Assembly: GCA_900319075.1 (NCBI GenBank) | Contig: ONMZ01000020.1 | Coordinates: 1 to 34,848, forward strand | Direction of reading: 5' to 3' | DNA from: an uncultured Eubacteriales bacterium | GTDB lineage: Bacteria; Bacillota; Clostridia; Oscillospirales; Ruminococcaceae | DNA length: 34,848 nt | Shown here: in pieces, positions 3,330 through 20,364 of the stretch | How positions within the stretch are numbered: position 1 is the stretch's first letter | Layout: the number at the start of each line of letters is the position of its first letter | Program-made: the position numbers and the translations under genes | Notes under the pieces: generated by a model | Databases searched by the model: none | The model's input: the letters and a program-made list of their open reading frames with translations, nothing else | Told to the model about the DNA's origin: nothing

Positions 3330-3424
3330 AATGATGAACCTGCCTTTTTGTGATATGCTGCTGTGGATCCTCAATTCTTGTTGTTATGCCATTGTGTTCT
3401 CCGATCGGAAGTGATGATCTGCGG

Positions 3425-3724
3425 TCACTGTATATCGAACACGGCATCAAGGCCGGTGTTTTGCAGTACCTCCGAAAAGTTCTGACCGACGTTGATAAGT
3501 TTCATCGTGCCCTTTGCCCCCTTCATCTTCTTGAACGCTGCAAGAAGTATGCGAAGTCCGGCAGAGGAAACATAGTCGCACTGGGCAAAATCAAGTGTGA
3601 GTGTCTGCACGCCGTCAAGCTCGCTGTCAACAAGTGCGGACAGCTCAGGTGCGCTCAGCGTGTTGAGTTCGCCTGACAGGCGGACAGTCAGTTCATTTCC
3701 GCTTTTTTCTTTGGTAAGTGTCAT
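3425..3724 (-). CDS. STAS-domain anti-anti-sigma-factor-like protein (SpoIIAA/RsbV family)
   Basis: 99 residues, the usual length of a single STAS domain. The phosphorylation loop reads DYVSSAGLRIL; by alignment with the DSSGL/DSTGL loop of SpoIIAA and RsbV, S54 is the expected phospho-acceptor, and S53 replaces the preceding Asp. In known systems the dephosphorylated form binds an RsbW-type kinase and releases its client. Here the gene lies between a SpoIIE-type phosphatase (23 nt upstream) and a MATE exporter carrying an RsbW-like tail, and no sigma factor gene is in the window, so I infer that the client is the transporter tail rather than a sigma factor. The start is set by AGGAG 8 nt upstream of the ATG. 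Confidence 0.9.
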   Translation of the reverse strand: MTLTKEKSGNELTVRLSGELNTLSAPELSALVDSELDGVQTLTLDFAQCDYVSSAGLRILLAAFKKMKGAKGTMKLINVGQNFSEVLQNTGLDAVFDIQ

Positions 3725-3746
3725 AGCAAATACTCCTGTTCATTTA

Positions 3747-5201
3747 TTATTTGATGGTCAGTACGACCATCGTTATATCGTCAAACTGCGGGACTTTGTC
3801 AGCAAAAACTCTGATATCGGCAAGGATATTCTCAAGTGCCTTTTCACCCGGCTCGTCCCTGGTGCTATCCAGTATTTTTTTCAATCGCTGGGTGCCGTAG
3901 AGCGCATTCTCACAGTCGTGCGCTTCCGTGACGCCATCGGTGTACAAAAGCAAGCGGTCGCCCGGTTCGAGTGTGATCTCAGCCTGCTTATATCTCGTAA
4001 AATCCATTCCTCCAAGGAAGAGTCCGTGTACACTTTCTATCAGCTCGCACGGCTTACCTTTACGCTGCAAAACAGGGTAATTATGACCTGCGTTTGTGTA
4101 TTGAAGCGTCATAGTTCGGGTGTCGAGAATTCCGATCCACGCTGTGGCGAACATTGCCTCATCGTTGTTCTCGCACAGTCGTGCGTTGACGGCGTTGAAT
4201 ATTTCCGACGTGGTGTCTTTTGTAAGAGTGTAGTCCTTAATCATAGTCTTGGACTTCATCATAAAGAGTGCAGCCGGGGTTCCCTTGCCGGATACATCGG
4301 CGATCAGAAAACATAAATGGTTTTCGTCAATGGGAAAATAGTCATAGAAATCGCCGCCCACTTCTTTTGCGGTATTCATACTGCCTCGCAGGATGATCTG
4401 TGGGAAACCTTCAAAATCCGGTGCAGCGGGAGGCAGTGCATCCGCCTGGATCTTTGATGCGATACGCAGATCGGTCTCGACCGCCTCTATATGCGCCTTC
4501 GTATCAAGGACGGCGTGAGTGCTGAGGTTGGTTACAAGATAGACAAGCGCAAGAGAGGTAGGCAAGGATGTTTCAATATACATATCCGCACCTTCGCCAA
4601 GGATCAATATCTGGATCCAGTAAATGATAGGTGCAATGGCGCCGAAAACGAACACGCTCGTGGGGATCTCCCCTCCGGCAGGTCTTTTTTTCTTTCCCAG
4701 CGTGAGAAAATAGATCGCAATAAGCAGAGGAGAAAAAGCGTAAAAATACACCACACCCTGAAATAGGCTCTCGAACAGCACCATACTTTCAATGACTCCG
4801 TCCTCATTCACCCAGAACAGCAGACGTGTCCAGGGGGTAGTGATGCTGAGCAAGGTGATGACCGCAACAGGTGTGCCGTAATATAGCAATATCCATTTTC
4901 TTTTCATCTTTACGCCGAAGCGTTCCATCAGATACCTGTTGAGGTAAATTGAAAAGAAAACAAATGCGATGCAGTATCCGCCTGTGGATATATATTTCAA
5001 AGCGATAGGTACATCCTGCCCGTCAAACAGCGTCCAAAGAGTCTCAAAAGCACACTTTGCTATGCCGAAGATCAACATAAGAGAGATATAATCTTTGACT
5101 TTTTGTTTGTAAAGGAAAATATTGTTGGCAAGCAAAATAGCCATCAGGATCGCTGAAACGAGCAAAATTTCCATAAGCAGTCGATCAGCCAGAGTATTCA
5201 T
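3747..5201 (-). CDS. Membrane-bound SpoIIE/RsbU-type PP2C phosphatase with 7-8 TM sensor region
   Basis: 484 residues, starting at the ATG preceded by AAAGGGA at 7 nt; the longer frame to 5255 runs through the leader and has no ribosome site. Residues 1-230 contain seven or eight hydrophobic segments, then a short coiled linker (about 232-256), then a complete PP2C-SIG phosphatase domain: GGDFYD (282-287), ADVSGKG (301-307), TDGVTE (421-426) and DDIT (474-477), all carrying the metal-binding acidic residues. Enzymes of this group dephosphorylate STAS proteins. As the first gene of the operon it should convert the STAS protein to its active form in response to a signal sensed in or near the membrane. 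The signal is unknown; the seven-helix region resembles small-ligand sensor modules, so a diffusible metabolite is possible (inference). Confidence 0.9.
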   Translation of the reverse strand: MNTLADRLLMEILLVSAILMAILLANNIFLYKQKVKDYISLMLIFGIAKCAFETLWTLFDGQDVPIALKYISTGGYCIAFVFFSIYLNRYLMERFGVKMKRKWILLYYGTPVAVITLLSITTPWTRLLFWVNEDGVIESMVLFESLFQGVVYFYAFSPLLIAIYFLTLGKKKRPAGGEIPTSVFVFGAIAPIIYWIQILILGEGADMYIETSLPTSLALVYLVTNLSTHAVLDTKAHIEAVETDLRIASKIQADALPPAAPDFEGFPQIILRGSMNTAKEVGGDFYDYFPIDENHLCFLIADVSGKGTPAALFMMKSKTMIKDYTLTKDTTSEIFNAVNARLCENNDEAMFATAWIGILDTRTMTLQYTNAGHNYPVLQRKGKPCELIESVHGLFLGGMDFTRYKQAEITLEPGDRLLLYTDGVTEAHDCENALYGTQRLKKILDSTRDEPGEKALENILADIRVFADKVPQFDDITMVVLTIK

Positions 5202-6694: not shown

Positions 6695-8446
6695 TCACCT
6701 TCCCAATTCAACAAGCATATTGTTAAGCCCTATGACTCTTGTATATTCAACCTTGTCAGCCACGCTGTCGATCATTTTAAGATTTGAAAATTCCTGTGTG
6801 TCCTCATCCACATTTGAAGGGTCAAATATTGCGCCGTTATCACGCACGGAAAGTATCACCCTGTCGTCAAGCACCTTGCAAAACAGGTCTATCTGCGGGA
6901 CTTTTTCGGTATTGAAACGGCGAATGTGCTCGACCATTTCTTCTGCAAGCAAACCTGCATACTTTGCCTTTTGCTCGTCTACCGAGTTTTCAAGGCAGAA
7001 TGTGCAGATGCTTTCAGAAACGCTGACTGCATCAGCCTTTTTTGCCTCAAGGCTGACATCAAACACTGCGCTGTTATCTGCAGATCTCTCAAAGAGAAAT
7101 ACGCTGATGTATTTATCTTTTTTTGTACGCAAGATCATAAAGCTTACAGCAAACGCCGCTGCCGCTGTCAGCATTTCCGAAACAACTATCGACCACCAAA
7201 TACCCGTAACGCCGAAGAGCTTTGACATTGCATATGCCAGCGGAACGGTCAGAACTATCCCCCGCAGCAGCGTTATCATTACAGACATCGCCTTGTGCTT
7301 TACCGACTGAAAGTAATTCATCATAATATAGCTTATACCCATTCCGATAAGGCTCAGCGAGAATATCCTCACAGCAGGCACACCAATGGCAAGCTTGCTT
7401 TCCGACTTTACCGAGAATATGGCAAGTATGGCTTGTGGGAACAAGCATATTATCCCAATGATCGCAGCGCAGCAGCACAGCACAAACGCAAATGTCTTTT
7501 TCAGTATGATGCCTATGCCCTTATTATCCTTTTCGCCGCTGAGCATACTTACTATGGGTGTCATAGTATCCGCTCCGCCCGACACAAACATCGATATGAA
7601 CGTGAGCAGGAAATTACAAACCGAGAAAGCCGATATGGCATCTGCTCCGCCTGCATTTATAACTATTCTGTTGAGCATTATCGCCTTTATGAACAAAAGC
7701 AGTGTGTTGAGCACAGAGGATATTCCGCTTGTACAAAGCTCCGCAATATTCTTCAGCTCGCTTGCACCAAGCTTTATAAATCTGAGGGTGCGCTTTTTAT
7801 AGATACAAAGATAATAAAGCACCATGAGCGATCCCACAGCGTACCCTGTCACCGTTGCAAGTGCGGCACCCTTTATCCCCATATCAAAAACCCTTATATA
7901 GACAATATCCATTATAAGATTTACTGCATTTGAAACGATCAGGATCGCAGATGAGAACTTTGGCATACCGTCTACCCGCATAATAAAAACAAATGTGGGG
8001 ACGATTATGATGAGCGAGCTTCCGTAGATGCTGTATGAAACATACTCGCTGACCATTTGTGTCAGCTTTTGTTCGTTGCATATCAGCGATACGATACCGT
8101 CTTTAAAAAGCGTACCGAACACCGTAACGGCAAGTGACACAATAAGTGCACCCATTATGGCAAGGGTGAAAAGGGAGTTCGCCTTGCCCCTGTCTCTTTC
8201 TCCAAGCGCCCTTGAAATGCTTATCAGACCGCCTATGCCAAAAAGAAAGAACAGCGCCTGAAAAAACAGTATAACAGGTTCTGCAAGGTTTACCGCCGAA
8301 AGTGCATCGGGGTCTATGAGCTTTGAAACGATTATGCCGTCCACAAATGATGCCAGAAGGATAGACATGGCGCTGAGTATTGTGGGCAAAAGATATTCGT
8401 TGAATTTTTTTCCCAGAAGCGCTGAGTTTCTTTTTAATGTCTCCAT
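6695..8446 (-). CDS. MATE-family efflux transporter fused to a C-terminal RsbW-like ATPase-fold domain (copy 2)
   Basis: 583 residues; the start has GGAGGAATAGTACATG and lies 3 nt past the NRPS stop codon, with the ribosome site inside the NRPS 3' end, so the two genes are translationally coupled. Residues 1-450 are a 12-helix MATE exporter. Residues about 452-583 form a GHKL-like domain: N-box-like EEMVEH (about E502/E503) where the expected Asn is His, a G1-like VRDNGAIFDP (D536), and a terminal GLNNMLVEL. The same layout occurs in the exporter of the neighbouring operon, with low overall identity, so the fusion is a repeated design and not an accident of one gene. Its position directly after the NRPS makes it the likely exporter of the product; its tail could be read by the STAS/phosphatase pair encoded 1.5 kb away (inference). 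Confidence 0.85.
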   Translation of the reverse strand: METLKRNSALLGKKFNEYLLPTILSAMSILLASFVDGIIVSKLIDPDALSAVNLAEPVILFFQALFFLFGIGGLISISRALGERDRGKANSLFTLAIMGALIVSLAVTVFGTLFKDGIVSLICNEQKLTQMVSEYVSYSIYGSSLIIIVPTFVFIMRVDGMPKFSSAILIVSNAVNLIMDIVYIRVFDMGIKGAALATVTGYAVGSLMVLYYLCIYKKRTLRFIKLGASELKNIAELCTSGISSVLNTLLLFIKAIMLNRIVINAGGADAISAFSVCNFLLTFISMFVSGGADTMTPIVSMLSGEKDNKGIGIILKKTFAFVLCCCAAIIGIICLFPQAILAIFSVKSESKLAIGVPAVRIFSLSLIGMGISYIMMNYFQSVKHKAMSVMITLLRGIVLTVPLAYAMSKLFGVTGIWWSIVVSEMLTAAAAFAVSFMILRTKKDKYISVFLFERSADNSAVFDVSLEAKKADAVSVSESICTFCLENSVDEQKAKYAGLLAEEMVEHIRRFNTEKVPQIDLFCKVLDDRVILSVRDNGAIFDPSNVDEDTQEFSNLKMIDSVADKVEYTRVIGLNNMLVELGR

Positions 8447-8449
8447 GTA

Positions 8450-11400
8450 CTATTCCTCCGTTCTGAAGAACCCAAGTCCTATCAGAGCTTTCAAAAATGC
8501 TGAGATATAATTATCCGCCGTCATAGACCAGTTGAAGCCCAGGCGGTACAGGCACTGTGTGGTATAATCATTTTCCGTGCGTATCATCTCTACCTTTTTG
8601 CTGCTGTCCATAGTCTCATAAGCAAGAAGCGCCGTGAGCAGCGCAGCCTTTTTCTTATCGCCCTGTACAGCCTTGACGCACCGTTCAAATTCCTCATCAT
8701 CGCACAGCTTTATATCAAGTCCCATTTGTTTCATTCTCAATATTATATCGCCCAGCGGGATATAATGATTGTTGAACGGGTGGAATATACAGCATTTATC
8801 CTCGGTCGTACACAGCCTTAATATCGCATCTGACGTTTCATCTATCGGCGCAAGCTCGACAGGATAGCCCATCATCGAATACGGATATGCGCCGATAACG
8901 AGATATGCTCTCAGCCTGCCCATAAAGCCGTTGGAAACGAAGTTTATCTGGAACTCTCCGTCGCTGGATCTGGGTGCGAGATTGCCCACACGCATTATCT
9001 TGGCTCTCAGTCCGTCCTTTATCGCCTCCAGAACGTATCCTTCAGCAAGGAATTTACTTTTCACATAATCGTTATCTATGGTCTGCCCGAAATAGAAGCT
9101 GCGCTCGTCAAGGCATTTGTCCTTCCCGGGATAGCCGTTGACTCTGTCGCCTGCAACGCTGCCTGTTGACACCTGAACAAGCATACTGCCGTGCTTTTTG
9201 CAAAGCTCGATAAGATTTCTTACTCCGCCTGTGTTGACACGCTCGATGTCGTCGGTGTCCGAGAAATGCTTGACAAGTGCCGCACAGTTTATGACCGTAT
9301 CAATCCTGCATCCGTCTAGCTGTGCAAACCAGTCGGTAGATGTAACACTTGCGTTGATAACAAATATCCTTTTGCCGAACAGCTCGGAATAATCATTCTC
9401 AAAGTAGTAGTAAAGCATTCGTTTCAGCTTGCCCTGGGCAGAGTTATCCCTGCCTCTGACAAGACACCACACCTTTGCATCGCTGTTTTCAAGAAAGCGC
9501 TTGAGTATGTGTATCCCAAGAAATCCCGTTGCACCCGTCAGCAGAAGATTGCCTACATCATTTTTCCCCTTTGAACTGTCATCAAAAACGTTTGCCTTGA
9601 GGATATCATCAAATGCGCTGTGGTCAAAGCCTGATATCCTGTCATCAATGTTTTGTATGCCGGCAGCTTTTCTTGCAAGAGCACGGGGAGTTTTCAAGGC
9701 AAATATATCGGTGTAGGATATTTCAAGACCTTTATCATTTGCCATTATAAGCACACTCGTTGCAGTCAGAGAGGTCCCTCCCAGATCAAAGAAACTGCTG
9801 TCTGCTCCAACCTTGTCTGTTCCAAGGACCTGTGCGAATATATCACACAGCAGCTTTTCCGTTTCATTTTCAGGCTCGCTTATTTCGGAGGTAAATGAAA
9901 GGTACGGCTTGGGAAGAGACCGAACATCGGTCTTCCCGTTGGGCGTCTGGGGCATGGAGTCCATTCTTATCAGGCAGGAAGGTATCATATATGCGGCAAG
10001 TCTCTTTGAGATGTGCTCACGAAGGATCTGTGGTGTTACGCTGCTGTCTGCACAATAGTATGCACAAAGATGCTCTGCCGAGTTGATCTTACCTATGATC
10101 GCCACCGCCTGCTTTACGCCTTCAAGCGACAGTATGGATTTTTCCACCTCGCCAAGCTCTATTCGCAGTCCTCTGAGCTTGACCTGATCGTCGTTCCTTC
10201 CCAGGATCACTATGTCGCCGCCGTCTGTCCAGCGGGCACGGTCGCCGGTTTTATAGATCCTTTCGCCGCCAAATTCCGCAAAGCTCTTTGCAGTAAGCTC
10301 GGGAGCATTCAGATAGCCCTTTGCCACGCCGGCACCGCCGACATACAGCTCTCCTACCGCACCGGGCGGCAGCAGGTTGCCGTCCTGATCGACGATGTAC
10401 TCGTTCACGTTCAGCAGCGGCTTTCCTACGCATATCTCACTTTGATCGGTAAGCTCCTTTGCATTACAGGAAACGGTTATCTCCGTCGGGCCGTAGGTGT
10501 TGAATATCCTTGCCTTTGTGACCGATCTTAGCTCGCTGAGCAGCTTTGGCGAATACTTCTCTCCGCCGCACATTATGACACGGCAGTTTGCAAGCGCCTT
10601 TTTAAAGCTGTCAAGCATCATATACTGTTCAAGCCTTGAGGGAGTGGCGTTGAAAACATCTGCGTGCGTTTTTTCAAACAGAGCGCACAAAAGCTGCGGG
10701 TCCCTTGTCTGTGCTTCGTCTGCAAGCACAAGTGTAAGTCCGTTGCAAAGCGCTGCGGCAGTTTCCTTGAGAGACATATCGAACGATACCGTTGTTACGG
10801 AAACGTAAACGCTCCCCTCATTTGCCATTGCATTTATATGTATATTTTCTTCATAAGGCATAAGATAATTTGCGATTGAGCCGTGACTTACCGCAACACC
10901 CTTTGGTCTGCCAGTTGAACCTGATGTATATATAAGATAAGCTGTGTCCTCAGGCGTTACGCCGCTGTCAGGGGTCTGAGTGTTTGTACACTCAACGAGC
11001 CGCTCTATGTTTATCTCGTTTTCATATCCCTTAGGTGAATCGGTGATTATATATTTTGCACCGCTGTTTTCAAGGATATATTCAATACGCTCCTGCGGAT
11101 ACTGCGTGTCACACGGTATATATGCACCGCCTGCTTTGAGCACGGCATACATAGCGATTATCTGTCTGCTGGTCCTTGGCAGAAGTATAGCTACTCTGTC
11201 GCCGCACCTGACTCCAAGCTGTGCAAGTCCGTTGGCTGCTGCGTTGATGACCCTGTCAAGCTGTGCATAGGTGTAGCTTGCATCACAGGCGATGAGCGCA
11301 GTCTTTTCGGGGTGCTTTTGTGCCTGAGCTTCAAACAGCTTGTGAAACAGCCTTATAGGTATCTCTCTTTTACCCGTGCAGGAGAATTGTGCAAGACGTT

Positions 11401-14400
11401 TTTTTTCTTCGCCGGTTATCATGCTGATACTGCACAGTTTTTGTGAAGGCTGTGCGATGATATTCAAAGCCGTCCGGGCTATTGCACCGGATATCATATT
11501 TGCCAGCTTTTCGCTGTACAAAGCGGTGTTATACTGAACCTTCACAGCAATCTTATCGCTGCCGCTTTCTTCGATATGAACAGACAGGCTGAACTTTGGC
11601 GCAGGGGGAAGTATCACCTGCTCACAAACAGCTTCGCCCCCGACGACTATCTTTTCATTCACGCCCAGCTGACAGGCATAGTTTATCTTTGAAGCAAATC
11701 CATACTTATCAAACAGCTTTATAAACGGATAAGCGCTGTTTCTCTGTGCTGCTGTGATAGCAGCTGCTGTATCGTCAACGAACTGAAGTGCAGATCTCTG
11801 TGTATCTATTGCTGCGTGCACCGGAAGAACATTTACGAACATACCTACCGAGTCAAAATACTTTACATCCTCTCTGACTCCGGATATCATCGACATATAC
11901 ACCTGCCTGTCGCCTGTAAACCGGCTGACTGCATATTGCGAAGCAGCAAGGAAAAGTGCTGCCGGTGTTACCGAGTTTTCACGGCAGAAGCTCTCTGCAT
12001 CTGCTCTGTCAACAAGGCATGTTGCTTCGCCGAGGCTTCCCAGCTCTGCGTCGGAATTGAGGTCCGGCGTGATGTCGCTTGCATTTTCATAATCCTCAAA
12101 CAGCGCTTTATAGTACTGCTTTGCCATTTTGCCTTTTTCACTTTTTTCCATCTGTATCTGCTCAGCGATATACTCATAGTACGAGAGGTCTGTTACAGGC
12201 TCGGTGCCGTTTTCATAAATATCGGCGAGCTTACGCATGAATATGGAAAGCGATATGCCGTCCATAATGATATGGTGAACATCAAACAACAGCACAACAC
12301 GGTTTTCTGTTCTAATGATCTCTGCTCTGAAAAGCGGTCCCTTGTTAAGGCTGAATGGCTTTACAAAGGCTGTCATATACTGTGCAAGCTCATCATCTTC
12401 AAGATCGGCGATCTGTACATCAGCCTTAAAACCGGGTATAGGCGACTGGATATATTCTGTTTCTTCAAGATTTATTCTCGACCACAATACAGGTGTTGCA
12501 TCTATCAGCTTTTCAAGTGAGCTTTTCAGCTTTGCAGCGTCGGTGTTTTTCGCAAAGGTATAGCTTATGGGAATGTTGTAGATCAGCGAATCGGGGCGTT
12601 TCATGCTGTCGATGTATACGCCCATCTGCTGTGCACAAAGCGGAGCACTGTCAAGAGGCTTTTTCTTCGCATCCCCGCTGCTGTCTTTGCCGGAACCGAT
12701 AAGGCTGTCTATTATAAGCTCCTCCAGGGTCATCAGCGTACAGCCCTCGTCCATAAGCTCGGTAACGCTGACCTTCAAGCCGTATTTATCATAAAGCTCA
12801 GCTGCGAGCGTTATTGTTGTCAGGGAGGTAAGCCCCAGCGAGATAAGGCTTTCGCTCACGCTAAAGCATTCAAATCCCGTTATATCGCCTACCATGCCGC
12901 ACAGCGCCTTTTCAAGGGAGTTCAGCTGCCTTGACTCCGCTTTTTCACCGCTCTGAACAGCCGGCTTTGGCAGCTTTTTCTTATCCACTTTTCCGTTTGG
13001 TGTAACAGGTATTGCGTCGATCTGCATTGTGACAGAGGGCACCATATAGCTGGGAAGCTCCTCAGAGATAAACCTTCCAAGGGCGGAAATATCCACCTTG
13101 CTTTGTGATACCACATAGGCACAAACAGCTTTGCCGCCCCCGGGAAGATCCACAGCGATAACACTTGCATCGGTTATACCGCTATATTCTCTTATGCGTC
13201 TTTCTATTTCCGTCAGCTCTATACGAAATCCTCTTATCTTTACCTGCTCGTCACGCCTTCCCACGAACTGGATATTCCCATCTGAAAGATAACGGCAGAC
13301 ATCACCTGTGAGGTACATTTTTTCATATCCGCCCACAGTGAAAATATTATTGTCGATAAACTTTTCCTTGGTCAGTTCATCACGCCCAAGATACCCCCTG
13401 CTCACAGGCAAGCCGGAAATAACAAGCTCACCCACAGCACCCGGAGGCAGAAGCCGCCTGCACTTGTCAAGGATATAAATATCGCAGTTGCCAAAGCTCT
13501 TTCCGATAGGAACGCTCTCATACTGCCTGTCCACCTTGTAATCGCTGACATATATCGTACACTCGGTAGGGCCGTAGGTGTTGACAAGATCAAACTGAGG
13601 CGGCTCACATGGTACGAGCTTTTCGCCGCCAACGGTGAACACCCTCATATACGGACTTTGTGGATATGATGTGATGTACTGTCTGCCAAGCTGAGTGGTA
13701 CAGTCCATCATCGTTATCTTATTTGAGATTACAAATTCGTTCAGCCCCACAAGGTCAAGCCTTGTTTCCTCGGGGACGATATACACAGCTGCACCGCTTG
13801 TAAGCGCAGGATACAGATCCTGCATGGAGGCATCAAATCCAAATGCACCATATGCGGCGAATCTGTCCTTGTCGCTCACACCGAAGCGCTCACAGAAGGA
13901 TATGCAGAAATTCACAAGGTTGGCGTGTTCAAGCATACAGCCCTTTGGCTTGCCTGTTGAACCCGATGTATAGATAAGCGCAAAAAGCGTGTGTGCATCA
14001 GGCTCATCAAGGACGGTATCGTTATCCTCCGGCAAGTCGTAAATACTGCCGGCGGATATGATCGTGCCTTTGTAATTCGGTATAAGTCCTGCAAGCTCGT
14101 CGTCAGCGATCACCACCTGTGCCTTTGAATCCTCAAGCATGAATTCAAGCCTGTCCTGAGGATAGTTGCTGTCAAGGGGCTGACAAGCGCCGCCTGCCTT
14201 CAACACGCCAAGAGTGCATATCGGGAACAGCTCACAGCGCTTTACCATTATACCCACAGGCTGCTCTTTTTTTACACCATTTCTTGCAAGCAGCCTTGCA
14301 AGGTTTTCACTGTATCGGTCAAGCTGTAAGTAGGTAAGGCTCTTGTCCTTAAAGCATACAGCGGTATTATCGGGGTGCGCTTTGACCTGTTTTCTGAAAA

Positions 14401-17395
14401 GGTCTACAAGGGTAAGGCTGCGGTCAAATACGACCTCGTTATCGTTCACCCTGCGGTAAAACTCTCTTTCACGCTCACCGCACAGCGCTATATCACACAG
14501 CCTGTCACATTCGGTCAAGCCCTTGACGATATTTATGTACATATGTGCAAAATTTTCTATCGTCTGCTTTAGGTATAGATCCTTTCTGTATTCAAAAGAC
14601 AGCGTGTAGCTGCCCTCCTGCTTGAAAACATCAAGTGACAGCTTTGCCATAGCGTCACCTGTTTTGTGCATACGGCGTGTTATTGTTTTTCCGCAAAAGT
14701 CAACACCCGAGAACATTTCGCCTTGATAAACGAAAAGTATATCCGAGTTCACGTTATACTCTCCCGCAAGCTGAACTATGGAAACAAGGTCGTGATCCAG
14801 GCATTCAAAAAGGGTGCCCTGCACACTTGAAAGATAGCTGCTTACCTTTTCATCGTCATCTGTTTTTATGCACATCGGCAGGGTGTGAACAAGCATACTG
14901 AAAGTGTTTTTCAGCTCCGGAAGGTGTCTGCCGTTTTCAACTGTACACAGCAAAGCAAGCTCCTGACCCGACTGCTTGGCAAGAGCATATGAAAACGCAC
15001 CGAGAAACAAAGTGTTTTCAGTGATCCCGAGTTTTTTGCAGAACGCCGCTATCTGTGCAGCATCAGCGTAGTCAGCTATATCGTATCTGATGATACCGCC
15101 GTTCTTTTCGGGTGCATCGGTTATCTCATCGGGGATTATATTGGAATCAACTTCAATGCCTGCGAGCATATTGTCAAAGAACTTTTTGCACTCTTCAAAT
15201 TTACTGCTTTGTTTCAGCTTTTGCTCATAGGTGCTGAGCATAAAGCTGTTGACGATCTCTTTTTGCGGCGCTTTGCCGCCGTATATAAGAGCAAGATTTT
15301 TCACAAACAGCGTCTCGGATGTTCCGTCTGTTATAAGGTGATGGATATCGCTGAAAAATACCACGCCCTGGGGTGTTTCGTACACGGCAAATCTGAACAG
15401 AGGACCATTTTCAAGGTCAAAGGGCTTTACAAATTCATGGCACAGTCCCTCAATATCCGTCTGCTGCGTCCGGATAACAGGGACATCTGTCTGCATATCT
15501 CTCACAGGAACGATACAAGGCTCACCGCCTACGATCCTTGCGCAGACCTTCATAAACGGATAAAGCTCCGCTGTTTGTTTCACAGCATCGGCAAGCTTGT
15601 GAGCATCTATGCCCATAGCCTTTTCAAAAAACATACTTGCAGGGTTGTTGTACTCAAGACTACCGGGATCGTGAATGCCTGCAAGATAGATCCCCAGCTG
15701 CGGATCCGTCATCGGGTAGGCATCCTTTTGTTCATACACAAACTCAATGCTTTCCTTTTTGGAAAGGCACTTGGCAATTTCACACGGAGTTCTCTTTTCA
15801 AATATCTGCTTAGCTGTTACGCTGTACCCCGACAGCTGTTCCTGAAGCATAACGCTCTTTATAGAGTCGCCGCCAAGGGCAAAAAAGTCGTCGTCCACGC
15901 CGACTCTTTCCAGTCCGAGCAGCTTTTCAAAAGCCTTGCAGACAAGTTTTTCCTCATCGGTCTGTGCAGCTTTATATTCTATGGCAAAGTCCTCAGCCTT
16001 AGGAGCCTGTAAAGCATTTCTGTCCAGCTTTCCGTTTGGTGTAAGCGCAAACTCTTTGACCCAAACGATAAATCGAGGTATCATATACGATGGCAGCGAC
16101 TTTGCAAGCTTCCCTCTTATCTGTTTATCAGAAAGCTTTTGCTGCGCCGTATAGTATCCGCATATATAAGTCTGTCCGTTGTCGTCGGTAAAGCTCTTCA
16201 CTACGGCATTGTCTATCCCCTCGATCTTTGAAAGGACCACCTCGACCTCGCCCATCTCCACACGCTGACCGTTGACCTTTACCATCCAGTCCTTGCGGTT
16301 TACATAGATGATATTTCCGTTTTCGTCTTTTTTAGCTATATCACCTGTATGAAGCAGCCTTTTGTCCATGTCATCGGTACTGAAAGGATTGTCTGTGAAA
16401 ACCTTTGCTGTAAGCTCGGGCAGGTTTATGTATCCCCTTGCCATCGTTCCGCTTATGCAAAGCTCACCCTCCTCACCGTCAGGGACCTGCTCGCCGTTTT
16501 TATCCACAATATATGCCTTATAGCCGTCCAGCGGCTTTCCGATCGGAGTATTGTCGTATGCCCTATCAAGCTCAAAGCTAAGCGCAATACTAAGCAGCTC
16601 GCTCAATCCGTAAGCATTTTTTATTGCAGCATATGGACTGTATACACCGCTTATACGCTCTCCGCCGCTGTTTATAATCCGCAGAGTGCTTTTTCTTACC
16701 GGCAGTCTTTTAAGCAGCTGCGGACTGATAACAGATGATGTTATTCCGTGAGCATCAATATATTCATCTATGAAAGCAATGTCTTTTCTTTGTTCATCGG
16801 TCAGAATATGTATCTGTGCGCCTGCCCATAGACTCGTCAGTATATCGCAGGAAGATATGGCAAAACTGAACGGAGTAACGCTCATTTGTACATCGTCTTC
16901 GCCGCAGCCTACCTTGAGCTGTCTGACAATAGTGCTTGTAAACGAATAATGGTCGTGGATTATACCCTTTGGGTTACCCGTTGAACCCGAGGTATATATG
17001 GCAACAGCTGCGTCCTGCATTGATATTTCGGGCAAAGTATCCGGCAGCTGCTCATTATTGATGCCATCAAGAAAATCCTTGTCGATTATAAGATCCGCAC
17101 CGCTGTCTTTTTTGATATACTCAACTCTGTCTTTAGGATACCCCACCGACAAAGGCGAATATGCTGCACCCGATTTAAGCACACCGATTATCGCAGCAAT
17201 ATACATACAGCTGCGGTCAAGAACAATAGGATATATTTTCTCCTTTTTGGCACCGTTTCGTATCAGCCTTGCAGCTATTTTTGAGCTAAGCTCGTCGAGC
17301 TGATGATATGTAAGGCGGTCATCGCCGCAAACAAGAGCGATCTTGTCAGGCGTTTTACCAACTATATATGTAAACCTGCGTACAAAATTTTCCAT
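8450..17395 (-). CDS. Three-module nonribosomal peptide synthetase with terminal thioester reductase (A-T-C-A-T-C-A-T-R)
   Basis: 2981 residues, no internal stop. Domains in order: A1 (about 10-430), T1 with FFALGGDSIKS (Ser near 510), C1 with HHLITDG (near 686), A2 (about 995-1440), T2 with an unusual LGLTSL (near 1522, Ser kept), C2 with HHIIMDG (near 1710), A3 (about 2020-2460), T3 with FFDLGGTSL (near 2537), and an NAD(P)H thioester reductase with TGATGFLG (near 2617) and catalytic YVKSK (near 2778). The R domain should release an aldehyde or alcohol. By hand alignment to GrsA, A1 has Ala where the amino-binding Asp235 normally sits (pocket A-I-C-I-N-G-A-S-I-K) and YGLSE for YGPTE, so it may load an acid without a normal alpha-amino group. 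A2 reads D-A-Q-D-T-G-T-I-Y-K, nearest to Gln-type codes; A3 D-M-K-N-M-G-T-V-S-K is not recognised. The start has AAAAGGGG 7 nt upstream. No phosphopantetheinyl transferase is in the window. Confidence 0.95.
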   Translation of the reverse strand: MENFVRRFTYIVGKTPDKIALVCGDDRLTYHQLDELSSKIAARLIRNGAKKEKIYPIVLDRSCMYIAAIIGVLKSGAAYSPLSVGYPKDRVEYIKKDSGADLIIDKDFLDGINNEQLPDTLPEISMQDAAVAIYTSGSTGNPKGIIHDHYSFTSTIVRQLKVGCGEDDVQMSVTPFSFAISSCDILTSLWAGAQIHILTDEQRKDIAFIDEYIDAHGITSSVISPQLLKRLPVRKSTLRIINSGGERISGVYSPYAAIKNAYGLSELLSIALSFELDRAYDNTPIGKPLDGYKAYIVDKNGEQVPDGEEGELCISGTMARGYINLPELTAKVFTDNPFSTDDMDKRLLHTGDIAKKDENGNIIYVNRKDWMVKVNGQRVEMGEVEVVLSKIEGIDNAVVKSFTDDNGQTYICGYYTAQQKLSDKQIRGKLAKSLPSYMIPRFIVWVKEFALTPNGKLDRNALQAPKAEDFAIEYKAAQTDEEKLVCKAFEKLLGLERVGVDDDFFALGGDSIKSVMLQEQLSGYSVTAKQIFEKRTPCEIAKCLSKKESIEFVYEQKDAYPMTDPQLGIYLAGIHDPGSLEYNNPASMFFEKAMGIDAHKLADAVKQTAELYPFMKVCARIVGGEPCIVPVRDMQTDVPVIRTQQTDIEGLCHEFVKPFDLENGPLFRFAVYETPQGVVFFSDIHHLITDGTSETLFVKNLALIYGGKAPQKEIVNSFMLSTYEQKLKQSSKFEECKKFFDNMLAGIEVDSNIIPDEITDAPEKNGGIIRYDIADYADAAQIAAFCKKLGITENTLFLGAFSYALAKQSGQELALLCTVENGRHLPELKNTFSMLVHTLPMCIKTDDDEKVSSYLSSVQGTLFECLDHDLVSIVQLAGEYNVNSDILFVYQGEMFSGVDFCGKTITRRMHKTGDAMAKLSLDVFKQEGSYTLSFEYRKDLYLKQTIENFAHMYINIVKGLTECDRLCDIALCGEREREFYRRVNDNEVVFDRSLTLVDLFRKQVKAHPDNTAVCFKDKSLTYLQLDRYSENLARLLARNGVKKEQPVGIMVKRCELFPICTLGVLKAGGACQPLDSNYPQDRLEFMLEDSKAQVVIADDELAGLIPNYKGTIISAGSIYDLPEDNDTVLDEPDAHTLFALIYTSGSTGKPKGCMLEHANLVNFCISFCERFGVSDKDRFAAYGAFGFDASMQDLYPALTSGAAVYIVPEETRLDLVGLNEFVISNKITMMDCTTQLGRQYITSYPQSPYMRVFTVGGEKLVPCEPPQFDLVNTYGPTECTIYVSDYKVDRQYESVPIGKSFGNCDIYILDKCRRLLPPGAVGELVISGLPVSRGYLGRDELTKEKFIDNNIFTVGGYEKMYLTGDVCRYLSDGNIQFVGRRDEQVKIRGFRIELTEIERRIREYSGITDASVIAVDLPGGGKAVCAYVVSQSKVDISALGRFISEELPSYMVPSVTMQIDAIPVTPNGKVDKKKLPKPAVQSGEKAESRQLNSLEKALCGMVGDITGFECFSVSESLISLGLTSLTTITLAAELYDKYGLKVSVTELMDEGCTLMTLEELIIDSLIGSGKDSSGDAKKKPLDSAPLCAQQMGVYIDSMKRPDSLIYNIPISYTFAKNTDAAKLKSSLEKLIDATPVLWSRINLEETEYIQSPIPGFKADVQIADLEDDELAQYMTAFVKPFSLNKGPLFRAEIIRTENRVVLLFDVHHIIMDGISLSIFMRKLADIYENGTEPVTDLSYYEYIAEQIQMEKSEKGKMAKQYYKALFEDYENASDITPDLNSDAELGSLGEATCLVDRADAESFCRENSVTPAALFLAASQYAVSRFTGDRQVYMSMISGVREDVKYFDSVGMFVNVLPVHAAIDTQRSALQFVDDTAAAITAAQRNSAYPFIKLFDKYGFASKINYACQLGVNEKIVVGGEAVCEQVILPPAPKFSLSVHIEESGSDKIAVKVQYNTALYSEKLANMISGAIARTALNIIAQPSQKLCSISMITGEEKKRLAQFSCTGKREIPIRLFHKLFEAQAQKHPEKTALIACDASYTYAQLDRVINAAANGLAQLGVRCGDRVAILLPRTSRQIIAMYAVLKAGGAYIPCDTQYPQERIEYILENSGAKYIITDSPKGYENEINIERLVECTNTQTPDSGVTPEDTAYLIYTSGSTGRPKGVAVSHGSIANYLMPYEENIHINAMANEGSVYVSVTTVSFDMSLKETAAALCNGLTLVLADEAQTRDPQLLCALFEKTHADVFNATPSRLEQYMMLDSFKKALANCRVIMCGGEKYSPKLLSELRSVTKARIFNTYGPTEITVSCNAKELTDQSEICVGKPLLNVNEYIVDQDGNLLPPGAVGELYVGGAGVAKGYLNAPELTAKSFAEFGGERIYKTGDRARWTDGGDIVILGRNDDQVKLRGLRIELGEVEKSILSLEGVKQAVAIIGKINSAEHLCAYYCADSSVTPQILREHISKRLAAYMIPSCLIRMDSMPQTPNGKTDVRSLPKPYLSFTSEISEPENETEKLLCDIFAQVLGTDKVGADSSFFDLGGTSLTATSVLIMANDKGLEISYTDIFALKTPRALARKAAGIQNIDDRISGFDHSAFDDILKANVFDDSSKGKNDVGNLLLTGATGFLGIHILKRFLENSDAKVWCLVRGRDNSAQGKLKRMLYYYFENDYSELFGKRIFVINASVTSTDWFAQLDGCRIDTVINCAALVKHFSDTDDIERVNTGGVRNLIELCKKHGSMLVQVSTGSVAGDRVNGYPGKDKCLDERSFYFGQTIDNDYVKSKFLAEGYVLEAIKDGLRAKIMRVGNLAPRSSDGEFQINFVSNGFMGRLRAYLVIGAYPYSMMGYPVELAPIDETSDAILRLCTTEDKCCIFHPFNNHYIPLGDIILRMKQMGLDIKLCDDEEFERCVKAVQGDKKKAALLTALLAYETMDSSKKVEMIRTENDYTTQCLYRLGFNWSMTADNYISAFLKALIGLGFFRTEE

Positions 17396-17453: not shown

Positions 17454-17551
17454 TTTCAATAGTTCAAGGCTCCCGGGAGTGCAGAAAGGTTTATGAGATC
17501 AGCGAGGCAATGTTCAAAGAATAACAGCGTACTGTGTTAAAACTGAACAAA

Positions 17552-17581
17552 AAAACGTCCGCACTGCTGCACGGGCGTTTT
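17552..17581 (-). terminator. Terminator of small RNA A
   Basis: A 10-bp stem (17552-17561 with 17572-17581, one G-T pair) and a 10-nt loop. On the minus strand it runs into a T7 tract; the plus strand also has T4, so it may act in both directions and shield the NRPS promoter from upstream transcription. Confidence 0.8.
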
Positions 17582-17679
17582 GCTGTGTTTTTGCTGTAAA
17601 TTTAAGGGAGGGAAATTATTAATTGTTTTTTGTAAAAGGTGTTTTGTGTTTGTCTCCTGTCATTTGTTTTTCTTTCTGT
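17552..17679 (-). ncRNA. Candidate small RNA A (C-rich, about 128 nt)
   Basis: A transcript is bounded by the promoter at 17686-17714 and the terminator at 17552-17581. The RNA begins about ACAGAAAGAAAAAC, is A-rich and largely unstructured, and carries UUUCCCUCCCUU (CCCUCCC = 17606-17612 on the plus strand), complementary to a GGGAGG-type ribosome site. It ends in the hairpin AAAACGCCCG / CGGACGTTTT followed by seven T. The same arrangement recurs in candidate RNA B at 20250-20345. A 14-codon frame (MTGDKHKTPFTKNN, 17619-17663) exists but has only a weak ribosome site, so a non-coding, base-pairing role is favoured. No known RNA family is recognised. Confidence 0.6.
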
Positions 17680-17685
17680 GTCTAT

Positions 17686-17714
17686 ATAATAACACCTGCC
17701 GGCTAAAATTTCAA
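17686..17714 (-). promoter_or_regulatory. Promoter of small RNA A
   Basis: TTGAAA (17709-17714 on the minus strand), 17-bp spacer, TATTAT (17686-17691). The -10 context GTGTTATTAT is identical to that of the small RNA B promoter. Confidence 0.75.
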
Positions 17715-17734
17715 TATTCAATTTTTCGCCAAAA

Positions 17735-17799
17735 TGTAGTATAAGCAACATCTTTTTTAAAACCGGTAGTTTTAGCTACAAGCGGCAGTTGAATTGTAG
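17735..17799 (-). promoter_or_regulatory. Array of regulator-binding dyads upstream of small RNA A, 30-bp period
   Basis: Read on the plus strand: TGTAG-TATAAG-CAACA at 17735-17750, GGTAG-TTTTAG-CTACA at 17765-17780, and a half-site TGTAG at 17795-17799. The starts are exactly 30 bp apart, three helical turns, so the sites face the same side of DNA. The first dyad ends 20 bp before the -35 box, the same distance as the matching dyad at small RNA B. This looks like tandem binding of a dimeric activator; its identity is unknown and no such regulator is encoded in the window. Confidence 0.6.
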
Positions 17800-17840
17800 T
17801 ATTATTTCATTATCTGCATTTATTTTGGAACATATAAATA

Positions 17841-17870
17841 ACAGCTCCCGTCCCCCGGGACACGAGCTGT
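17841..17870 (-). terminator. Terminator of the fruK-type gene
   Basis: Inverted repeat ACAGCTC / GAGCTGT with a further pairing GTCCC / GGGAC inside, 16 nt past the kinase stop codon. On the minus strand it is followed by TATTTATATG; on the plus strand by TTTTATT. Confidence 0.65.
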
Positions 17871-17886
17871 TTTATTATGGTCAAAG

Positions 17887-18789
17887 TCATCCCAGCTGTT
17901 TTAATAGCTGATATATATCGCCTGCACAGGCGAGCCCGTCGGAAAATGCAGTCGCTCCCCCTGCTGCCGTTCCAAGCTTCAGGGCATATTCACTGCCGCC
18001 GGTCATAAAGCCTGCTACGAATCCTGCGACCATAGAATCCCCTGCACCCACAGAGTTGACAGCCTTGCCCTTGCAAGCCGGACAGATGTGCACAGCCCCT
18101 GTATCATCTATAAGCAGCGCACCCTTTTCAGCCATTGACACCAGCACGTTCTGAGCACCCATGCTTTGGAGTTTTCTTGCCCCTTTTTCTATATCCTCCA
18201 TGGTGTGCATATCCTCTCCCAGCATTTCTTCAAGCTCTTTCTCGTTGGGCTTTACTAAAAAAGGTTTATATTTCAGCACATTCAGCAGCAGCTCGTTTGT
18301 GGCATCTACCACCGCTTTGATGTTTCTGTCCCCGAGCCGTTCAAGCACCTTTTCGTAAATATCCGAAGGAAGGCTGCCGGGTATACTTCCCGCAAGGATA
18401 AGTATATCCCCATCTTGAAGCTTATCCAGCTTGTTAAAAAGCATATCCAGAGCATTTTTATCAATGTTGGGGCCCTGGCCGTTTATTTCTGTTTGTTCAT
18501 TAGATCTTATCTTTATATTTATACGAGAGTTGCCCTCTTTAAGGGTGATAAATTCGGTCTTTACACCTGCACGTAAAACTCCCTGTTCAATGGCTTTTCC
18601 GGTAAATCCGGCAACAAAGCCCAGCGCTGCCGATTCCACCCCCAGCTCTTTGAGAACAAGCGAAACATTTATGCCCTTGCCCCCGAAGTATATTTTCTCG
18701 GAAATGGTGCGGTTGACTGTACCCGGGGTTATTTCTCCCGTGCATACAACATAATCTATCGCAGGGTTGAAGGTCACAGTATATACCAT
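17887..18789 (-). CDS. fruK: 1-phosphofructokinase / tagatose-6-phosphate kinase (PfkB family)
   Basis: 300 residues, the standard length for FruK/LacC. The PfkB signatures are intact: GGKGIN (36-41) near the N-terminus for sugar binding and SVGAGDSMVAGF with the catalytic base Asp251. It should phosphorylate fructose 1-phosphate (or tagatose 6-phosphate) to the bisphosphate in the cytoplasm. Unlike the usual fru operon there is no PTS permease or DeoR regulator beside it; it is a single-gene unit with its own promoter and terminator. AGGAGAT precedes the ATG. The choice between FruK and LacC rests on general resemblance only. Confidence 0.85.
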   Translation of the reverse strand: MVYTVTFNPAIDYVVCTGEITPGTVNRTISEKIYFGGKGINVSLVLKELGVESAALGFVAGFTGKAIEQGVLRAGVKTEFITLKEGNSRINIKIRSNEQTEINGQGPNIDKNALDMLFNKLDKLQDGDILILAGSIPGSLPSDIYEKVLERLGDRNIKAVVDATNELLLNVLKYKPFLVKPNEKELEEMLGEDMHTMEDIEKGARKLQSMGAQNVLVSMAEKGALLIDDTGAVHICPACKGKAVNSVGAGDSMVAGFVAGFMTGGSEYALKLGTAAGGATAFSDGLACAGDIYQLLKQLG

Positions 18790-18818
18790 TTTATCATCTC
18801 CTAAACTTACTGATGTTT

Positions 18819-18847
18819 ATTATACAGCAAAAGCCCCTGAAAATCAA
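18819..18847 (-). promoter_or_regulatory. Promoter of the fruK-type gene
   Basis: TTGATT (18842-18847 on the minus strand), 17-bp spacer, TATAAT (18819-18824). It is divergent from the phosphoesterase promoter about 100 bp away. Confidence 0.8.
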
Positions 18848-18944
18848 GCTTTTTATCAAGCGCTCACAAAGAGCGCAGATAAATATCCTGCTTGCCCCTG
18901 TCTGTTATGCCTGGGATGAATAAGCGAATATTTATAATTAGTAT

Positions 18945-18973
18945 TTGTAATTTTTTGCGCCTTGTGGTATAAT
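18945..18973 (+). promoter_or_regulatory. Promoter P1 of the shared GTATTTGTAAT class (phosphoesterase gene)
   Basis: TTGTAA inside GTATTTGTAAT (18941-18951), 17-bp spacer, TATAAT (18968-18973). The same 11-base block at the same distance to TATAAT recurs at 24061 and 26009. A degenerate copy, TATTTATAAT, lies 13 bp upstream. Confidence 0.7.
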
Positions 18974-19025
18974 AGAGTCAAAGATAACAATGATCAACAG
19001 CCATTCATCACAGGAGGTATATATT

Positions 19026-20126
19026 ATGGGTATGTGGGCACTTATATTTGGTTCGGTGATCGTTGCGGCGTGCCTTGGTATAGCATATCTTACCCTTTGC
19101 ATAGGCAGGTTTTCAGCAATAAAAAAACTTTCGGGGGAAAACAAATGGCGTAAAAGGATAATTTCCCTTGGTGTCACAGCGGCAGGCTTTGCTGTGGCAG
19201 CCCTTGCTATTTCTGTGGTGAACGCTGTTATGATACTTTTGCACGTTGTTATCTTTTTCCTGATCTTCGGCCTTTTGATACGGATAATAAACAAGGTGCG
19301 TGGAAAGGAATTCAAAATAAACTATCAGGGCTGGCTTGCACTGATAACATCGGCGGTTTATCTCTCCGTGGGCTGGTATCTTTGCCATAATGTATGGCAG
19401 ACCGATTATGAGCTTACCACAGATAAAAACGTGGGCACATTGAAGATAGCTCTGATAGCGGACAGCCATATGGGCACAACCTTTGACGGCAAGGGTTTTG
19501 AAGAACACTTAAAGACCATAGAAAAACAGTCTCCGGATATGCTGGTGATCGCAGGTGACTTTGTGGACGACTCCACCAGAAGCCAGGATCTTATTGACGC
19601 CTGCAATGCCTTAGGCAAGCTTGATCTGAAATACGGTGTATGGTATTGCTATGGCAACCACGACGAGGGATATTACAAAAATAAAGATTATACCCCCCAG
19701 CAGCTGGAAAAATCCCTGAAAGATAACGGGGTACATATTCTTGCAGACAGCTATGAGCTTGTTGACAACAGGTTCTATGTTGTGGGCAGAAAGGACAAAT
19801 CAAGAGGAGAGCGCAAGGACATGGATGACCTGCTCAAGGGAGTGGACACCGACAAATACATAATTGTCCTTGACCATGAGCCCAACGACTATAAAGCCGA
19901 AGCAGATTCTCCCACAGATCTTGTACTGTCCGGACACACCCACGGCGGACAGTTTTTCCCTGTGACCCACCTGGGAGTGCTTATGAGCATGAATGATAAA
20001 ACCTACGGCTATGAAAGACGAGAGTCTACGGACTTTATTGTCACTTCCGGAATTTCCGACTGGGAGATCAAATTCAAGACCGGCACCAAGTCCGAATATG
20101 TTATTGTAAATATAAAGGGCGATTAA
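19026..20126 (+). CDS. Membrane-anchored calcineurin-like metallophosphoesterase (YkuE-like)
   Basis: 366 residues, starting at the ATG 7 nt after AGGAGGT; the frame extends further upstream without a ribosome site. Four hydrophobic segments lie within residues 1-120. The catalytic domain carries all metal-binding motifs of the family: ADSHMG (D146, H148), GDFVDD (D178), GNHDE (N211, H212), DHEP, and GHTHGGQ near the C-terminus. YkuE-type enzymes hydrolyse phosphoesters at the membrane surface, with UDP-diacylglucosamine-like lipids known for related LpxG/YkuE proteins; the actual substrate here is not determinable. It is a single-gene unit driven by promoter P1, which it shares with the aldehyde-reductase and flavodoxin operons, so it may belong to the same response. 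Confidence 0.9.
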   Translation: MGMWALIFGSVIVAACLGIAYLTLCIGRFSAIKKLSGENKWRKRIISLGVTAAGFAVAALAISVVNAVMILLHVVIFFLIFGLLIRIINKVRGKEFKINYQGWLALITSAVYLSVGWYLCHNVWQTDYELTTDKNVGTLKIALIADSHMGTTFDGKGFEEHLKTIEKQSPDMLVIAGDFVDDSTRSQDLIDACNALGKLDLKYGVWYCYGNHDEGYYKNKDYTPQQLEKSLKDNGVHILADSYELVDNRFYVVGRKDKSRGERKDMDDLLKGVDTDKYIIVLDHEPNDYKAEADSPTDLVLSGHTHGGQFFPVTHLGVLMSMNDKTYGYERRESTDFIVTSGISDWEIKFKTGTKSEYVIVNIKGD

Positions 20127-20150
20127 AAAAGCATCAATTTCACATCAATG

Positions 20151-20196
20151 TGTAAAAAAAGCAACAGATCTTATGCAAAATGTAGTTTATGCTACA
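20151..20196 (+). promoter_or_regulatory. Tandem regulator dyads upstream of small RNA B, 30-bp period
   Basis: TGTAA-AAAAAG-CAACA at 20151-20166 and TGTAG-TTTATG-CTACA at 20181-20196, again exactly 30 bp apart. The proximal dyad extends to a perfect 9-bp inverted repeat (AAAATGTAG at 20177-20185 with CTACATTTT at 20192-20200). It ends 20 bp before the -35 box, identical to small RNA A. A weaker third site may begin at 20121 over the stop codon of the upstream gene. Confidence 0.6.
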
Positions 20197-20216
20197 TTTT
20201 ACAGTAGTATTGTTTA

Positions 20217-20245
20217 TTGATTTTAATGTGGATATGTGTTATTAT
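20217..20245 (+). promoter_or_regulatory. Promoter of small RNA B
   Basis: TTGATT (20217-20222), 17-bp spacer, TATTAT (20240-20245), inside the same GTGTTATTAT context as the small RNA A promoter. Confidence 0.75.
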
Positions 20246-20249
20246 TACT

Positions 20250-20345
20250 ACAGAACAAAGAAAGAGAGATAAAAGTAACTTCTCCAAAAAATACTTAATA
20301 TTTCCCCCCCATTTGCACCTGAGCATAAATTGCTCAGGTGTTTTT
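20250..20345 (+). ncRNA. Candidate small RNA B (C-rich, about 95 nt)
   Basis: Promoter at 20217-20245 and a very strong terminator hairpin with a perfect 10-bp stem (CACCTGAGCA 20316-20325 / TGCTCAGGTG 20331-20340, 5-nt loop, then TTTTT) bound a short transcript with no credible ORF. It starts about ACAGAACAAAGAAAGAG, is A-rich, and has two pyrimidine stretches able to pair with ribosome sites: CUUCUCC (20279-20285) and UUUCCCCCCC (20301-20310), the latter preceded by AAUA as in small RNA A. It is a likely base-pairing regulator and sister of small RNA A. No known family is recognised. Confidence 0.65.
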
Positions 20346-20364
20346 ACGCTGTACCGCAAACGGC

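Follow-up and report, generated by a model that had tools for sequence, protein, structure and literature searches.

Two short transcription units in a 34,848-nucleotide (nt) stretch of DNA from an uncultured Eubacteriales bacterium of the Ruminococcaceae (contig ONMZ01000020.1; the whole stretch is referred to below as the window) appear to be a real pair of small regulatory RNA (sRNA) candidates, with a mechanism that is probable by analogy rather than proven. We lean slightly towards the reading that both are trans-acting C-rich sRNAs which block ribosome sites, that they belong to an activator-driven regulon and that they descend from peptide mRNAs. The regulon, the synteny of the units, their common motif and their lack of an open reading frame (ORF) are supported by sequence comparison. 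Genomes, contigs and loci used in the comparison are given by our G, C and L numbers.

Architecture of the two units

Both units consist of an extended −10 promoter, an A-rich start (ACAGAA) and body, a C-rich stretch and a hairpin with a T-run, as the initial annotation had described them. Unit 1 lies on the minus strand 3′ of fruK and unit 2 on the plus strand 3′ of a phosphoesterase gene. In each, the −10 hexamer TATTAT carries a TG extension and follows TTGA(AA/TT) after a 17-nt spacer. Their features, including a Shine–Dalgarno (SD)-like element, are as follows.

17735..17780, minus strand: double operator of unit 1, with the distal palindrome TGTAGCTAAAACTACC at 17780-17765 and the proximal palindrome TGTTGCTTATACTACA at 17750-17735 (own-genome double-site scan)
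17686..17714, minus strand: promoter of unit 1, TTGAAA (17714-17709), 17 nt, TATTAT (17691-17686), with TG; the −35 lies exactly 20 bp past the proximal palindrome
17548..17679, minus strand: inferred RNA of unit 1, about 132 nt, no credible ORF, 5′ end ACAGAAAG near 17679 (ends inferred from sequence)
17654..17658, minus strand: SD-like AGGAG of unit 1 with no start codon behind it (sequence reading)
17604..17640, minus strand: bipartite C/U-rich module of unit 1, CCUUUUACAAAAAA...UAAUAAUUUCCCUCCC (motif alignment; model trained on this copy)
17615-17606, minus strand: C-rich stretch of unit 1, UUUCCCUCCC
17548..17578, minus strand: predicted intrinsic terminator of unit 1, hairpin at about 17578-17555 and then a T-run (fold and terminator scan)
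20151..20196, plus strand: double operator of unit 2, with the distal palindrome TGTAAAAAAAGCAACA at 20151-20166 and the proximal palindrome TGTAGTTTATGCTACA at 20181-20196 (own-genome double-site scan)
20217..20245, plus strand: promoter of unit 2, TTGATT (20217-20222), 17 nt, TATTAT (20240-20245), with TG; 20 bp past the palindrome
20250..20348, plus strand: inferred RNA of unit 2, about 99 nt, no ORF, 5′ end ACAGAAC near 20250 (ends inferred from sequence)
20277..20312, plus strand: bipartite C/U-rich module of unit 2, ACUUCUCCAAAAAAUACUUAAUAUUUCCCCCCC (motif alignment; model trained on this copy)
20301-20310, plus strand: C-rich stretch of unit 2, UUUCCCCCCC
20315..20345, plus strand: predicted intrinsic terminator of unit 2, hairpin at about 20315-20341 and then a T-run (fold only)

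The only ORF of unit 1 is a 14-codon ATG frame with no SD of the AGGAG/GGAGG type in front, and there is no ATG anywhere in the RNA of unit 2, which bears out the earlier view that neither unit contains a convincing ORF. At the level of sequence both units thus have the own promoter, the intrinsic terminator and the lack of an ORF that characterize the C-rich, SD-blocking sRNAs of Firmicutes. The terminator scan listed the hairpin of unit 1 and not that of unit 2, which is visible in the fold. Folding of the whole RNA gave z = −5.0 for unit 2 (0 of 200 shuffles as good) and z = −1.2 for unit 1, which is no better than chance (24 of 200 shuffles as good); the predicted fold of unit 1 has GGAG paired to four bases of the C-rich stretch, which is otherwise free. 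The bodies of the two units (first 10 nt removed) resemble one another, with a Smith–Waterman score of 22 against a mean of 10.6 (standard deviation 2.3) for dinucleotide shuffles, none of 300 of which did as well. The initial annotation knew of no described RNA family with this layout and the searches agree with it: Rfam 15 at gathering threshold gave no match in the window or in nine related loci, and permissive Rfam searches gave sub-threshold matches only (for example RefA9 at 18.9 of 49 bits and rliE at 25.4 of 90).

A double palindrome at a fixed distance from the promoter

Alignment of the upstream regions of both units brought out shared TGTAG...CTACA elements. The complete plan is a 16-bp palindrome (TGTWGYWTAWRCWACA), exactly 20 bp, TTGAAW, 17 bp, TATTAT and then ATAGACACAGA or similar, with a second copy of the palindrome 30 bp further upstream (the two palindromes being 14 bp apart). 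A promoter-plan scan and inspection of loci found the same layout in front of other genes of the own genome. Across 29 genomes of the genus, Ruminococcus, allowing two mismatches, there were 86 sites in 13 genomes as against one for the reversed pattern, and the plan was present in 8 of the 20 complete, clean genomes. Family-wide (197 genomes from 125 genera, one mismatch) four genomes carried it: the own genome with 9 sites, a member of one other genus with 2, and two more with a single site apiece. When GTDB species genomes, possibly without the own genome, were scanned for exact matches, 19 stretches came back, each under a Ruminococcus or uncultured Clostridia title. If up to three mismatches are tolerated, the double operator occurs at 8 sites in the own genome, both window units among them, and at none in the reversed control. 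Of 88 distinct promoters collected, not selected for the second site, 85 have one scoring at least 12/16, a count made without a separate chance control; its spacing is exactly 30 bp in 76 and 31 bp in 7. The promoter consensus also hints at a third half-site further upstream. On this sequence evidence the plan marks a genus-level regulon, found almost exclusively in Ruminococcus, which we regard as well supported and of which we found no earlier description.

The palindromes, the regulon and the presence of the same promoter plan at protein-coding genes had not been seen in the initial annotation, which had presented the units as a sister pair. The likeness of the two bodies upholds that description, whereas the promoter turns out not to be private to the pair, marking instead a regulon of mostly protein-coding genes. 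Because the plan is shared with such genes the promoter alone does not make the units special sisters; what sets them apart is the C-rich 3′ module.

The operator layout (palindrome centre at about −63, second site 30 bp upstream) resembles class I/III CRP promoters. A CRP-type activator was rejected as a candidate since the distribution of PF13545 (HTH_Crp_2) does not follow the regulon: at E ≤ 1e-4 it is found in 23 of the 29 genomes, is absent from G011 (9 sites; genome 70% complete) and is present in 13 of the 16 genomes that have no site at all. A recA-like gene in C42 (named by eye) was rejected as a regulon member, as it shares the −10 and 5′ region and not the palindromes. Small secreted-type or short-peptide genes in three other genomes (L108 in G025, L112 in G021 and L103 in G020) have the same −10 and 5′ region with TGCAAGG direct repeats upstream, and this combination suggests a parallel regulon with another activator.

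Genes driven by the regulon

The 88 collected promoters differ as a set from the 86 sites, since they include loci from the GTDB-scan genomes and a few likely chance matches. A script that read 450 nt found an SD together with an ORF of 12 aa or more, beginning no later than nt 220, for 79 of the 88, of which we count 77: L167 and L188 were excluded because their ORFs start at 210–216 nt, behind an apparent terminator or another promoter. The first ORFs among the 79 encode 12–31 aa in 29 cases, 32–100 aa in 16 and more than 100 aa in 34 (some without a stop codon within the 450 nt read), so that the products are short peptides, small proteins and longer secreted-type proteins. Examples of the peptides are MEWLGIFVNDLIARGL (three near-identical tandem copies), MISALISITAGLIFVASCIYVTRTIVTNTAK and MVLLSIAAVAAV. 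Some of the proteins have a signal-peptide-like start (MKNTNTT...), and Pfam returned no family above cut-off for the six regulon sequences submitted. The remaining 11 promoters could be divided into two groups. Seven drive ORF-less RNAs: both window units, their orthologues in Ruminococcus sp. FC2018 (L177 and L065), and one RNA each in G011 (L071), G020 (L253) and G004 (L167). The other four are L182 and L111 (ORFs of 2 and 5 codons), L188 (a weak SD only) and L240 (start apparently lost).

In the own genome, peptide or small secreted-type genes stand under the plan at C19:16222, C22:273575, C37:25907, C37:29066, C11:48236, C23:16317, C51:7490 and C29:960 (L035-L041, L048, L121), and six of these eight sites, all except those on C51 and C29, are also double operators. 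The 16-aa peptide with its three near-identical tandem copies belongs to this set, as does a protein containing GKHPGEAGYNYVNE repeats. Two secreted-type protein genes look disrupted by eye, the own C29 gene (L037) by a frame shift near the start and that at L240 in G010 by loss of the start region.

A C-rich 3′ module shared by the ORF-less RNAs

When aligned, the seven ORF-less RNAs share a bipartite motif, CCUUCUaCAAAAA..UAAUA.UUUCCCC, placed before the terminator (consensus ACCUUCUACAAAAAA-n-UAAUA-UUUCCCC), and a hairpin with a T-run follows it in all seven (by reading; folded for the two window units only). Homologous copies under the same operators number two in the own genome and two in FC2018, and one was found in each of G011, G020 and G004; the motif recurs in the last three species with different terminators and, judging from the operators, a single regulator would presumably serve all copies. 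Of 21 pairwise comparisons of bodies, 6 scored above all, or all but one, of 300 shuffles. Four involve unit 1, whose partners are unit 2, its own FC2018 orthologue, G011 and G004; the other two join unit 2 to its FC2018 orthologue and to G011. None of 300 shuffles was as good for unit 1 against unit 2, G011 and G004 or for unit 2 against its FC2018 orthologue.

A sequence model whose training set was limited to the four copies from the window and FC2018 (the held-out model) was run on loci of the other species. With filters off (43 loci, 75,558 bases, both strands) its top three matches were the G011 RNA, the G020 RNA and the 3′ untranslated region (UTR) of a G004 peptide mRNA, at E-values of 0.057, 0.077 and 0.12, the fourth following at 0.9. 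The statistics are modest, but that the top matches sit 3′ of regulon promoters, in sense orientation, speaks further for them. The G004 mRNA (L221) belongs to the regulon and encodes MKLAVLVFGAAYAAIVTKTALGRTI; its module lies at 2613-2646 of the locus, directly before the terminator, and model R1, which was not trained on L221, found this module at E = 0.013. By eye, the 3′ UTRs of peptide mRNAs in FC2018 (L175) and G010 (L238) also contain several UCCCC-like repeats.

Tandem arrays of terminator-ended short RNAs were seen in G005 (L154, about 2462-3200), G027 (L156, about 2730-3130) and G022 (L155, about 2376-2500), by eye with 4, 2 and 1 copies; some contain CUCUUCAAAAAAUAGUUUCCC, and all have the same extended −10 behind another upstream element, TTTAAGGTAAAATTTAGCC. 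They resemble the units by eye, but we did not count them as members on account of weak scores (E = 0.1 and 0.39 for two of the four G005 copies, no match on any array unit of L155 or L156, and no array match with default filters) and of that different element. The L155 and L156 arrays adjoin the apparent end of a Clp ATPase gene (by eye). A further set of short RNAs (GGTTCGGCGAAGCGGTAAAGCC..., CGATCCCCCAAGTCGC), without a match in Rfam, lies behind TTCATGTTCGGTTCATATT direct repeats in G012 (L157, about 2500-4000) and G024 (L114, 348-700).

Conservation in FC2018

In FC2018 (G008) unit 1 again lies 3′ of fruK (81% identity) and unit 2 3′ of the phosphoesterase gene (89%), on one contig. Both units retain their operators, promoter, motif and terminator there, while the sequence between these elements diverges or differs in length, the very pattern that the initial annotation had named as support. 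The RNA of unit 1 would be 168 nt long in FC2018 and 132 nt in the own genome; that of unit 2 would be 213 and 99 nt, with start, motif and terminator retained. As unit 1 of FC2018 contains no ATG, the 14-codon frame, whose conservation as a protein would have spoken against an sRNA, is not kept in this, the one orthologue available.

The window also carries, on the minus strand at 8450-17395, a gene that reads by eye as a multimodular non-ribosomal peptide synthetase of 2981 aa ending in a reductase-like domain, which adjoins a MATE-like transporter gene (6695-8446). The first 198 aa of the synthetase gave no tblastn match in the 8-kb stretch of FC2018 around unit 1.

Targets, function and origin

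We infer transcription, activation, pairing, repression and descent as follows. An activator would bind the two tandem palindromes, 30 bp apart with the nearer ending 20 bp before the −35, and would switch on the extended −10 promoter of both sRNA genes; the same activator would turn on mRNAs that encode short peptides or small proteins of the secreted type. Most likely the module base-pairs to the G-rich ribosome-binding sites of mRNAs encoded elsewhere and blocks their translation, so that the signal inducing the peptides would also turn other genes down. We propose this kind of sRNA because the C-rich module, own promoter, terminator and lack of an ORF fit a kind known from Firmicutes. The RNAs probably descend from peptide mRNAs whose frame was lost and whose promoter, relic SD and 3′ module were kept. 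AGGAG or GGAGG without a start codon at SD distance is present in five of the seven ORF-less RNAs (own unit 1, FC2018 units 1 and 2, G011 and G020), whereas the only AGGAG of the G004 RNA lies in its terminator; as there are also mRNAs that carry both a peptide frame and the module, the comparison suggests loss of the frame as the simplest history. The relic SD could instead have been retained to pair with the C-rich stretch, as in the predicted fold of unit 1. A tentative extension, which we regard as possible but doubtful, is that the peptide mRNAs and the frame-less RNAs born from them share an anti-SD module through which they cross-regulate each other or common targets, in a genus-specific regulon.

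Several results weigh against trans-acting sRNAs, whose transcription is predicted from sequence. Pairing of the C/U-rich stretch with ribosome sites, expected in the initial annotation, found no backing in duplex prediction, which out of the whole genome covered 22 window genes and 6 regulon mRNAs, yielded no convincing target there and was mostly no better for the modules than for shuffled ones; the best isolated pairings, those of unit 2 with the transporter gene next to it (4 of 100 shuffles as good) and of unit 1 with an acyltransferase-like gene (7 of 100), are unremarkable among 44 tests. Gene starts in this test came from the ORF list (that of the phosphoesterase moved to 19026), and some are probably not true starts. 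Unit 2 has no relic SD, its predicted fold pairs the UUUC of UUUCCCCCCC (six C's staying free), and it is found behind the phosphoesterase gene only in the own genome and FC2018, not being seen at 26 other orthologue loci read by eye for about 560 bases downstream, of which three (L126, L129 and L136) are uninformative because they meet contig ends; L150 and L151 were outside this reading. As to the module, the other 15 of the 21 body pairs were equalled by 6 to 147 of 300 shuffles (147 for unit 2 against FC2018 unit 1), and runs of C exceed those of dinucleotide shuffles in only two of the seven bodies (G011, 3 of 1000; G020, 49 of 1000). The held-out E-values are weak singly, with the ORF-less RNA of G004 ninth at E = 2.7, and under default filters (64 loci, 184,590 bases, the 43 loci above among them) only the G020 RNA (E = 0.19) and the G004 3′ UTR (E = 0.74) were found. 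In the 29 genomes, with scoring limited to 150 first-look candidates in each, the seven best places of the full model are its own training members; other matches begin at E = 0.028, and one of the later ones (G004:C19:20642) is the 3′ UTR in L221.

It is unlikely that the module is primarily a cis-acting 3′ tail, folding onto the SD of its own mRNA to throttle translation, with the ORF-less units as decayed copies that act, if at all, on sister mRNAs. Such a mechanism is known experimentally from icaR (PMC3868564), and the module or C-rich repeats do follow the stop codon of peptide mRNAs (L221 in G004 and, by eye, L175 in FC2018 and L238 in G010); the AGGAG/GGAGG of five ORF-less RNAs and the pairing of GGAG with four bases of the C-rich stretch in the fold of unit 1 would also suit it. 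However, the tail of a single coding member stands out with the held-out model in other species' loci, unit 2 is without an SD-like element, and against the six own regulon mRNAs the two modules did not do better than shuffled ones, 10% of shuffles being as good as the best pairing. The relic SDs without start codons could also be remnants of decaying peptide genes, in which promoter and terminator persist, the transcript is functionless and the motif reflects recent common descent, and in keeping with this other regulon members look broken by eye (own C29 and L240 in G010) and most cross-species comparisons of bodies are at or near chance. We nevertheless think decay less probable still, since two species have preserved operators, promoter, motif and terminator despite divergence and length differences between these elements, and the motif is found in three further species with different terminators.

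Rho binds C-rich, unstructured, G-poor RNA, and the stretch, being C-rich and G-poor, might in principle be a Rho entry site, or a protein-binding site, and not a pairing seed. This we consider highly improbable: an intrinsic terminator-like hairpin and T-run come after the module in all seven RNAs (by reading), so that Rho would seem superfluous, and the motif has a bipartite sequence rather than mere C richness.

Significance

Ruminococcus includes important fibre degraders of the rumen and gut. In titles and abstract openings, with subscription journals mostly outside the scope, we found neither base-pairing sRNAs nor this promoter signature described for the genus, and Ruminococcus goes unnamed in the main text of a large survey of structured RNAs from human microbiomes (PMC8040213). 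The double palindrome at a fixed distance from the −35 is a handle for finding the whole set of short-peptide and sRNA genes, and the occurrence of coding and ORF-less members side by side offers a way to ask how regulatory RNAs arise from short mRNAs. If cross-regulation through a common module is true, regulatory RNAs would here be caught in the act of arising from peptide mRNAs.

Comparison with known systems

FsrA of Bacillus subtilis is a C-rich, translation-blocking sRNA that responds to Fur and iron, and RNAIII of Staphylococcus aureus has C-rich motifs and encodes a small peptide. The window units resemble RNAIII in combining C-rich motifs with a peptide gene linked to a regulatory RNA, although here RNA and peptides are on separate transcripts. 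C-rich motifs of Firmicutes sRNAs are described as binding SD regions (PMC4132741, PMC9410917); the passage on LhrC names further sRNAs with such motifs, FsrA and RNAIII among them (PMC4132741), and RsaE and SprD are named as well (PMC4132741, PMC9410917). LhrC of Listeria monocytogenes, compared by its published description only, is likewise a set of several sister sRNAs under one regulator, there LisRK, and its redundant CU-rich (UCCC) motifs bind target mRNA (PMC4132741), the modules of the window units being C/U-rich too. They differ from LhrC in having the module between an A-rich body and the terminator, another operator and co-regulated peptide genes, and they have no Rfam match. IsrR of S. 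aureus is described as having C-rich regions and blocking translation, under a regulator common to the sRNA and protein genes (PMC9410917); it differs in its Fur/iron signal, its three C-rich regions and its three stem-loops, and no match to it was found here. Whereas icaR of S. aureus is a protein-coding mRNA with 5′–3′ pairing shown and the window units have no ORF, the UCCCC-type anti-SD motif near the 3′ end of the icaR 3′ UTR (PMC3868564) is comparable to the C-rich tails of the regulon mRNAs.

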